64,000 nucleotides of DNA. Source: Veillonella sp. 3310. GTDB lineage: Bacteria; Bacillota; Negativicutes; Veillonellales; Veillonellaceae. The stretch covers positions 62,001 to 126,000 of the forward strand of contig NZ_RQVJ01000002.1 in assembly GCF_003999875.1 (NCBI RefSeq), given 5' to 3'. Below the pieces are notes generated by a model. The model ran no database searches and was not told where the DNA came from. It was given only the letters and a program-made list of their open reading frames with translations. Made by a program: the position numbers and the translations under genes. Positions 3,635 through 26,411 of this stretch are shown piece by piece; position 1 is the first letter of the stretch, and each line of letters begins with the position of its first letter.

Positions 3635-4213
3635 TTATATATATTCTTCTATCCAAGAGTCATGATAGGCAATGGCTTTTTGTAAGTCTACGCAATGTGT
3701 TTTATTGTGCTTTGGCAGGGTGTTAGTTATTGATTTTGTATAAAATCGTAGTGCTTTATCATAAATTGTATCTTTCATGGTATTAATGGCGTAATATTCT
3801 TTTTGTAACAAGTCACCATATTTTCTCTCAGAAGAGATAGTAGATGATAGCAAGTCATTGATAGAAATTTCAGAGATTTGAGAGCTAGGTACAGGAATTA
3901 TTTTTCCGATAATCATATTGCAAAGATGAATTTGCTTATTACTTATAACTTTTATACTGAGGCGTCTTTTCTTTATATTAGATTTTTTTGCTTTAGCAAT
4001 TTTTAAATCATTAGAGTTTAATGTATTTGGAAATTTAACTGTAGAAGACAATGGTGCAAAAAATAGTCTATTTTGTATGGTAAGTACCACGCCTATATAG
4101 GGCCGAGTTCTTTTTTCTCCAGTTGAAATTCTAACATTAGAATCGATGCTTTGTAATGCTTCCATATATGTTTCATTTATTTTATAAAAGCTTAAGTTTG
4201 GTTGTGTGTTCAT
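3635..4213 (-). CDS. toxN: Type III toxin-antitoxin endoribonuclease, ToxN/AbiQ family
   Basis: Predicted RNA-cleaving toxin held inactive by an RNA antitoxin; relatives act in phage abortive infection or plasmid stability. The 192-residue protein follows the family pattern: LSFYKINETYMEALQSIDSNV at the N-terminus, RPYIGVVLTI (37-46), FFAPLSSTVK (51-60) with the active-site Ser/Thr/Lys region at 56-60, NMIIGKIIPVP in the middle, and a C-terminal KYGDLLQKEYYAINTMKD helix. Upstream on the same strand are a promoter, a three-unit repeat array and a terminator, which is the standard ToxI-terminator-ToxN layout. The ribosome site is weak. The gene is visibly more AT-rich than leuB and pheA, suggesting transfer. 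Family assignment is by pattern recognition. Confidence 0.88.
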   Translation of the reverse strand: MNTQPNLSFYKINETYMEALQSIDSNVRISTGEKRTRPYIGVVLTIQNRLFFAPLSSTVKFPNTLNSNDLKIAKAKKSNIKKRRLSIKVISNKQIHLCNMIIGKIIPVPSSQISEISINDLLSSTISSERKYGDLLQKEYYAINTMKDTIYDKALRFYTKSITNTLPKHNKTHCVDLQKAIAYHDSWIEEYI

Positions 4214-4233
4214 ATAAAGTGCCTATAGTTTAT

Positions 4234-4263
4234 AAAAAGAAAAGCCGAGATACATCCCGGCTT
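4234..4263 (-). terminator. Intrinsic terminator between antitoxin RNA and toxN
   Basis: Read on the minus strand, AAGCCGGGA pairs with TCTCGGCTT over nine pairs (one G-U) around a four-base loop, followed by TTTTCTTTTTATA. In known toxIN loci a leaky terminator at this place makes much more antitoxin RNA than toxin mRNA; the position here fits that role. Confidence 0.85.
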
Positions 4264-4264
4264 A

Positions 4265-4431
4265 CATTGCAAATAAAGTATATCCATGGTGGGGAGCACC
4301 ATCCTTATGGGCCTCTCTTTAAAAATGATAACTCATTTTATGGTGGGGGTGCACCAACAATAAAGTCCCTCGCTTTCAGAATGATGAAGCATTCCATGGT
4401 GGGGAGCACCAACGATAAAGTCCCTCGCTTT
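4265..4431 (-). ncRNA. toxI: ToxI-like antitoxin RNA: three tandem 55-56-base repeats
   Basis: On the minus strand, units run about 4431-4377, 4376-4321 and 4320-4265. Units 1 and 2 begin with AAAGCGAGGGACTTT; unit 3 is diverged (AAAGAGAGG). Each contains a GGTG-loop-CACC hairpin with a C-rich loop (CTCCC or CACCCC), and the GAGGGA before it can pair with that loop, which would form an H-type pseudoknot like that of ToxI. A second small hairpin follows: GAATG/CATTC in unit 1 and AAAATG/CATTTT in unit 2, so the pairing is kept while bases change. The array lies between a minus-strand promoter and a terminator in front of toxN. Structure is by eye. Confidence 0.82.
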
Positions 4432-4451
4432 AGATATACATTTATAAGTCA

Positions 4452-4480
4452 ATCCTATCATACCAATTTTAGAATGTCAA
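4452..4480 (-). promoter_or_regulatory. Promoter of the toxI-toxN transcript
   Basis: On the minus strand TTGACA (4480-4475, consensus -35) is followed after exactly 17 bases by TAGGAT (4457-4452), with TG one base before it (extended -10). Transcription would begin near 4446, just before the first repeat. Confidence 0.75.
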
Positions 4481-4568
4481 TTGTGTTAGAAGCTTATTGG
4501 TTAATAGATTCTCGAACTATTTTTTGCAAAGTATCATAGTCTTGAAAATATCATTCTTCGATGCGGAA

Positions 4569-4597
4569 ATGACCAAAGAAGGTATTTTGTGTATAAT
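4569..4597 (+). promoter_or_regulatory. Promoter of pheA
   Basis: ATGACC, 17 bases, then TATAAT at 4592-4597 inside GTGTATAATAGT. The same 12-base -10 context recurs before alr and ilvE. The pheA start is about 45 bases downstream. Confidence 0.65.
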
Positions 4598-24477: not shown

Positions 24478-26007
24478 ATGGCAACAGTTCAGGAAAAAAT
24501 TGAATTATTGCATAAAAAGCTGTCCACTGTAAAACAAGGTGGCGGTGAAAAACGCGTAGAAAAACAACACGCGAACGGTAAATATACAGCTCGTGAACGT
24601 ATTGAAAAATTATTCGACGATAATAGCTTCGTTGAATTGGATCAATTCGTTAAACATCGTTGTGTGAACTTTGGTCAAGAGAAAAAAGAATTACCAGGTG
24701 AAGGCGTAGTGACTGGTTACGGTACTATTGACGGACGTTTGGTATTTGCTTTTGCTCAAGATTTCACAGTAGAAGGTGGCTCCCTTGGGGAAATGCACGC
24801 TGCTAAAATCGTTAAAGCACAACGTATGGCAATGAAAATGGGCGCTCCTATTATCGGTATCAATGACTCCGGTGGAGCTCGTATTCAAGAAGCAGTAGAC
24901 GCATTAGCTGGCTACGGTAAAATCTTCTTTGAAAACACTAACGCTTCTGGCGTTATCCCACAAATTTCTGTTATCATGGGACCATGTGCAGGCGGTGCTG
25001 TATATTCTCCAGCATTAACTGACTTCATTTACATGGTTAAAAATACATCTCAAATGTTCATCACTGGTCCAGCTGTTATCAAATCTGTAACAGCAGAAGA
25101 AGTAACAGCAGAAGACCTTGGTGGTGCAATGGCTCATAACAGTGTATCTGGTGTAGCTCACTTTGCAACAGAAAACGAAGATGATTGCTTAGCACAAATT
25201 CGTTACTTGTTGAGCTTCTTACCAAGCAACAACATGGAAGACACTCCATTAGTTGACACTGGTGATGACCCAGCTCGTGAAGATGAAGGTTTAAATACTT
25301 TACTTCCAGACAATCCAAATATGCCTTATGACATGTTCGATGTTATCCGTGCAACAGTCGATAATGGTGAATACTATGAAGTACAACCACACTATGCACA
25401 AAATATTATTACATGTTTCGCACGTTTTGCTGGACAAAGCGTAGGTATCATTGCTAACCAACCACGCGTAATGGCAGGTTGCTTAGACATCAATGCATCC
25501 GACAAATCTTCCCGCTTTATCCGTTTCTGTGATGCTTTCAACATCCCTGTTGTAAACTTCGTTGACGTACCGGGCTTCCTACCGGGCACAAACCAAGAAT
25601 GGGGTGGCATTATTCGTCACGGTGCGAAAATGTTATATGCTTACTCTGAAGCAACAGTACCTAAAATTACTGTTATCACTCGTAAAGCATATGGTGGATC
25701 TTACCTTGCAATGTGTTCCCAAGATTTGGGTGCAGACCAAGTGTATGCATGGCCTACATCTGAAATCGCTGTAATGGGACCTGCTGGTGCAGCTAACATC
25801 ATTTTCAAACGCGATGAAGATAAAGATGAAAAAACAGCTAAATATGTAGAAGAGTTCGCAACTCCATACAAAGCTGCTGAACGTGGATTCGTTGACGTAG
25901 TAATTGAACCTAAACATACTCGTCCTGCTATCATCAATGCATTAGCAATGTTGGCAAGTAAACGCGAAACCCGTGCTCCGAAAAAACACGGTAATATCCC
26001 TCTATAA
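24478..26007 (+). CDS. mmdA: Methylmalonyl-CoA decarboxylase alpha subunit (carboxyltransferase)
   Basis: Transfers the carboxyl group of (S)-methylmalonyl-CoA to the biotin of MmdC. The 509-residue protein is a two-domain acyl-CoA carboxyltransferase. The N half has GGGEKRVEKQHANGKYTARERIE, GSLGEMHAAKI, INDSGGARIQEAVDALAGYG and GPCAGGAVYSPALTDF. The C half has NIPVVNFVDVPGFLPGTNQE and TRKAYGGSYLAMCSQDLGAD. GGAGG is 8 bases before the ATG. The order mmdA-D-E-C-B that follows is that described for Veillonella parvula. Confidence 0.96.
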   Translation: MATVQEKIELLHKKLSTVKQGGGEKRVEKQHANGKYTARERIEKLFDDNSFVELDQFVKHRCVNFGQEKKELPGEGVVTGYGTIDGRLVFAFAQDFTVEGGSLGEMHAAKIVKAQRMAMKMGAPIIGINDSGGARIQEAVDALAGYGKIFFENTNASGVIPQISVIMGPCAGGAVYSPALTDFIYMVKNTSQMFITGPAVIKSVTAEEVTAEDLGGAMAHNSVSGVAHFATENEDDCLAQIRYLLSFLPSNNMEDTPLVDTGDDPAREDEGLNTLLPDNPNMPYDMFDVIRATVDNGEYYEVQPHYAQNIITCFARFAGQSVGIIANQPRVMAGCLDINASDKSSRFIRFCDAFNIPVVNFVDVPGFLPGTNQEWGGIIRHGAKMLYAYSEATVPKITVITRKAYGGSYLAMCSQDLGADQVYAWPTSEIAVMGPAGAANIIFKRDEDKDEKTAKYVEEFATPYKAAERGFVDVVIEPKHTRPAIINALAMLASKRETRAPKKHGNIPL

Positions 26008-26087
26008 GATATTAGGTAGAGGCATACTACACACTTTGCTTCTTGCATGATTCTACTATCATGGTTCTCTATTAATGAGGTGAAAGT

Positions 26088-26411
26088 ATGACAGATAATC
26101 CGTGGCTAATTATGGCCATCAATATGACAATTGTATTCGCCGTTCTAATTTTATTAGGCGTGCTTATGCATATTATTTATCTAGTAGATCCTACAAAAAA
26201 AAAGTCAACTAAGGCTGAGGTAGCAGAGGTATCATCAGCCACAGCTCCTAGTGCGGTAACTACTACTAATCATGATGAAGTGGTTGCAGCCATCGTGGCA
26301 GCAGTATGTGCGATGGGATATTCCAAATCACAAATTGCTTCCGTAAGACCGATTGTGAGCACAGGTTGGAAATTGGACGGTAGACTGCTAGGTAGGAATG
26401 TAACCAGATAG
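26088..26411 (+). CDS. mmdD: Methylmalonyl-CoA decarboxylase delta subunit
   Basis: Small membrane-anchored subunit needed for assembly of the decarboxylase complex. The 107-residue protein has one N-terminal membrane helix (about 10-30, MAINMTIVFAVLILLGVLMHIIYLV), a charged and Ala/Thr-rich linker, and a C-terminal segment (about 63-103) that repeats almost entirely in the next gene mmdE. GAGGTGAAA lies just before the ATG. It is like OadG-family delta subunits. Confidence 0.93.
   Translation: MTDNPWLIMAINMTIVFAVLILLGVLMHIIYLVDPTKKKSTKAEVAEVSSATAPSAVTTTNHDEVVAAIVAAVCAMGYSKSQIASVRPIVSTGWKLDGRLLGRNVTR

Follow-up and report, generated by a model that had tools for sequence, protein, structure and literature searches.

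A chromosomal ToxIN locus of Veillonella with a probably circularly permuted, end-closed antitoxin RNA

The window, a 64,000-nt stretch of DNA from Veillonella sp. 3310, carries on its minus strand (3635–4480) a chromosomal type III toxin-antitoxin locus of the ToxIN family, as seen from its sequence, the predicted fold of its toxin and its gene order. Relative to ordinary ToxI, the antitoxin RNA of this locus appears to be circularly permuted and closed at its ends, and we propose that it folds into a ring of three pseudoknots. We put the probability of this reading at about 0.7, on the computed gene order, the ToxN fold, an insertion in pseudoknot loop L2, the phase of the repeats and a helix that closes the array. 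The pairing of the RNA ends had been overlooked in the original prediction for this locus.

The locus is flanked by leuB and pheA. A single promoter is followed by three tandem RNA repeats, then by a Rho-independent terminator and then by the toxin gene; the original prediction had this minus-strand order right at the same coordinates, and its reading of the genome as Veillonella-like is supported as well. The elements outside the array are as follows.

4452–4480, minus strand: promoter of the sigma-70 type (TTGACA-17-TAGGAT), predicted RNA start around 4445
4242–4263, minus strand: Rho-independent terminator at the boundary of array and toxN, 9-bp stem, AAGCCGGGATGTATCTCGGCTT and T run
3635–4213, minus strand: toxN, ToxN/AbiQ-family endoribonuclease toxin of 192 aa (Pfam PF13958, 2e-26)

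At the matching position, relatives also carry TTGACA with a −10-like box. The terminator is conserved in all seven arrays of the alignment (A3), and the region has two terminator-like sites where 0.6 would be expected. An Rfam search of the locus region gave no family above its cut-off.

The product of toxN is homologous to ToxN/AbiQ. It matches the Pfam family ToxN_toxin (PF13958) with 93.5 bits (cut-off 25), the PADLOC AbiQ model with an E-value of 2.4e-26 and, in a sequence search, the ToxN structure PDB 4ato with 8e-13. An AlphaFold model built from 20 window and locus sequences has a pLDDT of 89.5 and a pTM of 0.84, and the only significant PDB matches of this model in Foldseek are the four known ToxN/AbiQ structures, the best being ToxN of B. 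thuringiensis (1.2e-11). Pfam, PADLOC and the predicted fold thus agree on the ToxN/AbiQ type first proposed for this toxin. Two other identities were considered and rejected: CptN, since the PDB and fold searches give only ToxN/AbiQ structures, and TenpN, since Pfam gives only ToxN_toxin and PADLOC only AbiQ.

The three repeats of the array are spaced 56 and 55 bases apart. Most ToxN loci from the same class have repeats of 35–40 nt, and published gut ToxIN repeats measure 34–46 nt, with one TenpIN repeat of 55 nt (PMC6315513 Table 3); the unusual length claimed for these repeats therefore stands for ToxIN but not for type III systems overall. An ordinary unit (L014) reads GGUG-AGCCUCU-ACC-AUAAAGU-GAGG-ACCUAAAAAAGC, its parts being stem strand a, the loop with strand b, stem strand a′, loop L2, strand b′ and a linker with the cut site. 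The window unit is a normal ToxI of about 37 nt with a hairpin of 18–19 nt inserted in L2. A covariance model made from 15 ordinary ToxI units (R1) aligns a window hairpin with ordinary positions 2–26 at 15.8 bits (E = 0.0026), and aligns AAAGCGAGGGACUUUAUU with the end of L2, b′ and the linker. In the window, the segment AAAGCGAGG corresponds to the L2 end and b′, the next 10–12 nt to the linker, and the small hairpin lies within L2. After removal of the insert, 13 units (end-joined closing units included) score 7.2–15.8 bits in the ordinary order, 1.7–6.2 bits in the order first proposed and about −1 when shuffled, and shuffling of the 3′ half only lowers the mean score in 18 of 18 units. 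L2 is reported not to be vital for contact with ToxN and to accommodate changes in length (PMC3475682), and hairpins inserted in L2 are also seen in three ToxI arrays outside this clade, L028, L042 (in one unit) and L048 (in two of three units, the last unit being without it). Model alignment, order scores, half-unit shuffles, L2 hairpins elsewhere and the tolerance of L2 all lead to the assignment of an ordinary ToxI with an insert. By this homology and by S1/S2 complementarity, the repeat unit is able to fold into the H-type pseudoknot of ToxI, in a permuted phase. The elements of the array, in the order of transcription, are the following.

4432–4439, minus strand: 5′ closing-helix strand GUAUAUCU, pairing with 4278–4285 (probability 1.0); further pairing strand at 4440–4447
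4422–4431, minus strand: 5′-terminal half unit, L2 end (AAAGC) and S2 strand b′ (GAGGG), aligned to ordinary ToxI
4412–4421, minus strand: linker 1, between b′ and the next unit, a predicted ToxN cleavage region homologous in position to the ordinary linker
4397–4411, minus strand: unit 1 hairpin UGGU-GCUCCCC-ACCA (S1 and loop strand b), aligned to ordinary a-L1-b-a′ by R1
4378–4395, minus strand: unit 1 L2-insert hairpin GGAAUG/CAUUCU, with covariation
4367–4376, minus strand: unit 1 L2 end and b′, AAAGC-GAGGG; S2 with the unit 1 loop has four of five positions paired in seven of seven arrays
4357–4366, minus strand: linker 2, predicted cleavage region by the same positional homology
4341–4356, minus strand: unit 2 hairpin UGGU-GCACCCCC-ACCA, within the R1 match at 4332–4356 (15.8 bits, E = 0.0026)
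4322–4339, minus strand: unit 2 L2-insert hairpin AAAAUGA/UCAUUUU, with covariation
4311–4320, minus strand: unit 2 L2 end and b′, AAAGA-GAGGC, diverged in sequence; covered by the S2 pair count
4302–4310, minus strand: linker 3, predicted cleavage region, as for linkers 1 and 2
4287–4301, minus strand: 3′-terminal half unit, hairpin UGGU-GCUCCCC-ACCA, proposed partner of b′ at 4422–4426
4278–4285, minus strand: 3′ closing-helix strand GGAUAUAC, from folding, RNAalifold and pair counts; further pairing strand at 4267–4274

Two details of the original prediction recur here: the extra small hairpin does change its bases while keeping its pairs, as the covariation bears out, and the pseudoknot strand noted as diverged in its unit 3 is indeed GAGGC in place of GAGGG.

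Which loop pairs with GAGGG decides the phase of the array. Pair counts for S2 are the same in either register (73 of 100 cells), so the S2 partner was chosen by homology and geometry. The C run available to GAGGG adjoins ACC. A b′ strand placed upstream of the hairpin leaves 0 nt to cross the new stem, which is disallowed by the established topology of H-type pseudoknots, whereas a b′ placed downstream gives the geometry of known ToxI, with an L1 that is short (G5 and one base) and an L2 that is long. Pairing of GAGGGA with the downstream hairpin loop, as originally predicted, is thus unlikely given the missing crossing strand and the low score of that order, and the unit start and end given there are probably misphased. 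The rival in which the array is an ordinary linear one, with three complete 55–56-nt units starting from AAAGCGAGGGA, GAGGGA paired with the downstream loop, the extra hairpin as a 3′ tail and ends that are unrelated, seems to us quite improbable. It does yield three whole units from the array boundaries, with complementarity equal to that of the other register. The conserved, A-rich AAAG moreover resembles known ToxN cut sites (AA^AU, GAA^AU and AAA^AA; PMC8860590), and because AAAG is closer to these sites than the linkers are, cleavage might fall there, before GAGG. However, a linear array would reverse the ordinary ToxI order, with the loss in bits given above, and would leave a conserved helix between leader and trailer without explanation.

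Read in the ordinary order, the array opens with the last pseudoknot strand (b′) and finishes with the first hairpin (a-b-a′), and is very probably circularly permuted relative to ordinary ToxI; our confidence stops there because the pair counts tie and the crossing argument is one of geometry taken from known pseudoknots. Some 35 further ToxN arrays, L. lactis AbiQ among them, were inspected by eye; they lack the permuted phase and begin with a hairpin. The leader strand GUAUAUCU, located directly before AAAG, pairs with GGAUAUAC after the third hairpin, precisely where the internal units have their L2 hairpin. The two half-units at the ends would therefore form a third pseudoknot and close the ring, although we hold this split pseudoknot somewhat less firmly than the permutation. 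Once joined, the end halves score 8.9–14.6 bits as a ToxI unit (14.4 bits in the window), matching the internal units. Between the first b′ and the last loop, G-C pairs are maintained and both-sided changes occur.

In folding, the closing helix has a pair probability of 0.88–1.0 in nine arrays, all of which come from one genus and one Veillonella group. Unguided RNAalifold on seven arrays recovers the closing helix, three hairpins, two L2 hairpins and the terminator, with the closing helix unbroken in all seven. In the named whole-array structure, pairing holds in 90.3% of cells and both-sided changes are seen at 18 of 64 pairs, against 4.4 in shuffles (0 of 500 reach 18) and 1–3 in slid structures. 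None of the eight closing pairs is broken in any of eight arrays (64 of 64 cells), and C-G to U-A, U.G to G-C and A-U to G.U changes occur among them. Five of the eight pairs are invariant, so much of the case for this helix rests on conservation. The leader-trailer energy is −10.4 to −13.3 kcal/mol, with a shuffle P of only 0.004–0.02 per locus; in 11 ordinary loci it ranges from 0 to −7.2. Between the first 25 nt of the RNA and its last 40%, 8.4–19.2 pairs are expected in the permuted arrays and 0.4–7.9 in the ordinary controls, from which L016 and L026 are excluded.

It might be argued that the leader-trailer helix is real but serves only as a stability clamp, the end halves forming no functional pseudoknot and the RNA supplying two antitoxin units. 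Many small RNAs hide their 5′ end by such a clamp, and here the RNA 5′ end lies only a few bases ahead of the helix; furthermore, 1.8 to 2.5 repeats are enough for the known antitoxins antiQ and ToxI (PMC5086642). This explanation is doubtful to us, given the exact position of the helix at that of the internal L2 hairpins, the scores of the joined halves and the G-C pairs kept, with both-sided changes, between the first b′ and the last loop.

On the permuted, end-closed reading, the locus could work as follows. One promoter would yield an RNA of about 200 nt and thus much antitoxin, with some readthrough of the terminator giving little toxN transcript, as judged from known ToxIN. The RNA would start and end within L2, in the order b′ - linker - (a b a′ - L2 hairpin - b′ - linker) × 2 - a b a′, and leader and trailer would pair through 8 bp and a weaker outer helix, which in the cell would make a ring of three ToxI pseudoknots. 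Presumably, ToxN cuts the three linkers, leaving two units in one piece each and a third in two pieces that the closing helix keeps together. Each transcript would then supply three antitoxins, which might neutralise ToxN in a 3:3 complex; a 3:3 ToxIN hexamer is known from Pectobacterium and E. coli. We tentatively suggest, as a possibility rather than an expectation, that this non-covalently closed ring sets the 3:3 stoichiometry and hides the RNA ends, and that solitary arrays are retained as immunity to plasmid or phage ToxN. If true, the locus would be a natural test of ToxIN ring assembly, with three-fold closure already present in the precursor and with a closing helix that can be broken and restored by mutation.

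Compared with the characterised ToxIN systems (Pectobacterium atrosepticum, B. thuringiensis and E. coli) and AbiQ/antiQ of Lactococcus, the window locus has the same ToxN fold and the same order of array, terminator and toxin, together with a UGGU/ACCA-like S1, a G5 in the loop, AAG before the S2 strand and a linker of about 12 nt. In contrast, the characterised units are of 34–36 nt and in the ordinary phase, whereas the window array has 18–19 nt more in an L2 hairpin, is permuted and has paired ends. CptIN of Eubacterium rectale is like the window locus in its type III layout and H-type pseudoknot, but differs in its 45-nt unit with a long A-rich L2 and in forming a heterotetramer (PMC4627078); the window toxin has no CptN match in the PDB or fold searches. 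TenpIN repeats are published at up to 53–55 nt (PMC6315513 Table 3), and the window toxin matches only ToxN_toxin/AbiQ.

Six genomes of the genus were compared at the leuB site. The window genome, 3891 and VA142 carry toxIN there, G004 and G002 have only the array, and G003 has nothing. Both solitary arrays (G002, L074:2781-2991; G004, L075:1157-1367) keep promoter and terminator, with toxN deleted; in G004 some 25 nt remain from the 3′ end of toxN, and the deletion in G002 ends elsewhere. A clade RNA model found two more toxN-less arrays at a site flanked by a pseudouridine synthase gene and fba, both with a long terminator and the ring design.

G003:C4, about 112735–112960: second-site array L093, three hairpins
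G006:C4, about 25980–26190: second-site array L094 (G006b), two hairpins

With its two hairpins, the latter would make a ring of two. The G003 genome contains no ToxN gene. In total, four of nine arrays, at two sites, are without toxN, which corresponds to at least two separate toxin deletions, and these arrays retain the closing helix and compensated RNA pairs. VA142 has two further tandem toxIN of permuted design (L095:3726-5334), adjoining small helix-turn-helix-like ORFs and genes named by reading as MobA/L-like relaxase and replication-organiser-like; from the relaxase-like and replication-organiser-like neighbours, the tandem pair probably belongs to a plasmid or mobile element. The locus at the leuB site is judged to be old, as toxin dS is close to leuB dS. 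Over 379 genomes of the class, the clade model gave convincing matches in this genus only; weak matches in two genomes outside it (G091 and G108) resembled coding or AU-rich DNA and were dropped. No relatives were found in viral contigs by protein, alignment or array pattern, and the phage records contain one remote ToxN, whose array is ordinary. L007, from a different genus of the family (G013), is a degenerate toxN that has three in-frame stops and lacks an array.

The RNA of the toxin-less loci may act alone, for instance against plasmid-borne ToxN. Speculatively, solitary arrays could neutralise a foreign ToxN in the way known for excess ToxI and for phage pseudo-ToxI (PMC3475682). The pseudo-ToxI of phage PhiTE is a toxin-less ToxI-like RNA that can suppress ToxN, and its DNA repeat and RNA unit differ in phase (PMC3475682); like the arrays described here it is without a toxin, but it is phage-borne, and an end-closing helix is not described for it. 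Toxin-less copies at two chromosomal sites, with their pairing kept, would offer a natural case for RNA antitoxins as protection against foreign ToxN.

The toxins themselves raise the question of activity. By alignment, the active-site equivalents in the window toxin are R37 (E. coli ToxN Lys33), S56 (Thr52), S57 (Ser53) and V59 (Lys55). In E. coli ToxN, toxicity is abolished by K33A, T52V or K55A (PMC8860590). The nearest loci, in Veillonella sp. VA142 and 3891 (toxins 84 and 88% identical), have A59, so that the leuB-site lineage carries V/A at the Lys55 position, unlike characterised ToxN; plasmid-type copies have K. The residue after V59 in the window toxin is K60, which may take over the role of Lys55. 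Decay of the locus, with a toxin that is inactive or nearly so and an RNA that is a leftover, would fit V59/A59, the deletion of the toxin in G002 and G004 and the absence of the locus from G003. We nevertheless regard it as unlikely, since the ORF is intact in three species with a dN/dS of about 0.13–0.26 and the RNA pairs remain compensated even without the toxin. An attenuated toxin is possible in view of V59 and the two toxin deletions in sister genomes. A role in phage defence is plausible, but it is weakened by V59 and the toxin loss in relatives and should not be assumed.

A basic helix (window 3965–4015, toxin residues 67–83) is inserted directly after the active-site loop; it is present in the leuB-site toxins and in VA142b1, and absent from VA142b2 and other ToxN. 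A link between this helix and the L2 hairpin was rejected as a rule, VA142b2 combining a toxin without the insert and an array with hairpins. Between the toxI promoter and pheA, the segment at 4504–4572 of the window resembles the end of an msrAB-like gene that G002 has at this position (local score 56, against a shuffle maximum of 44), and is probably a remnant left by a deletion.
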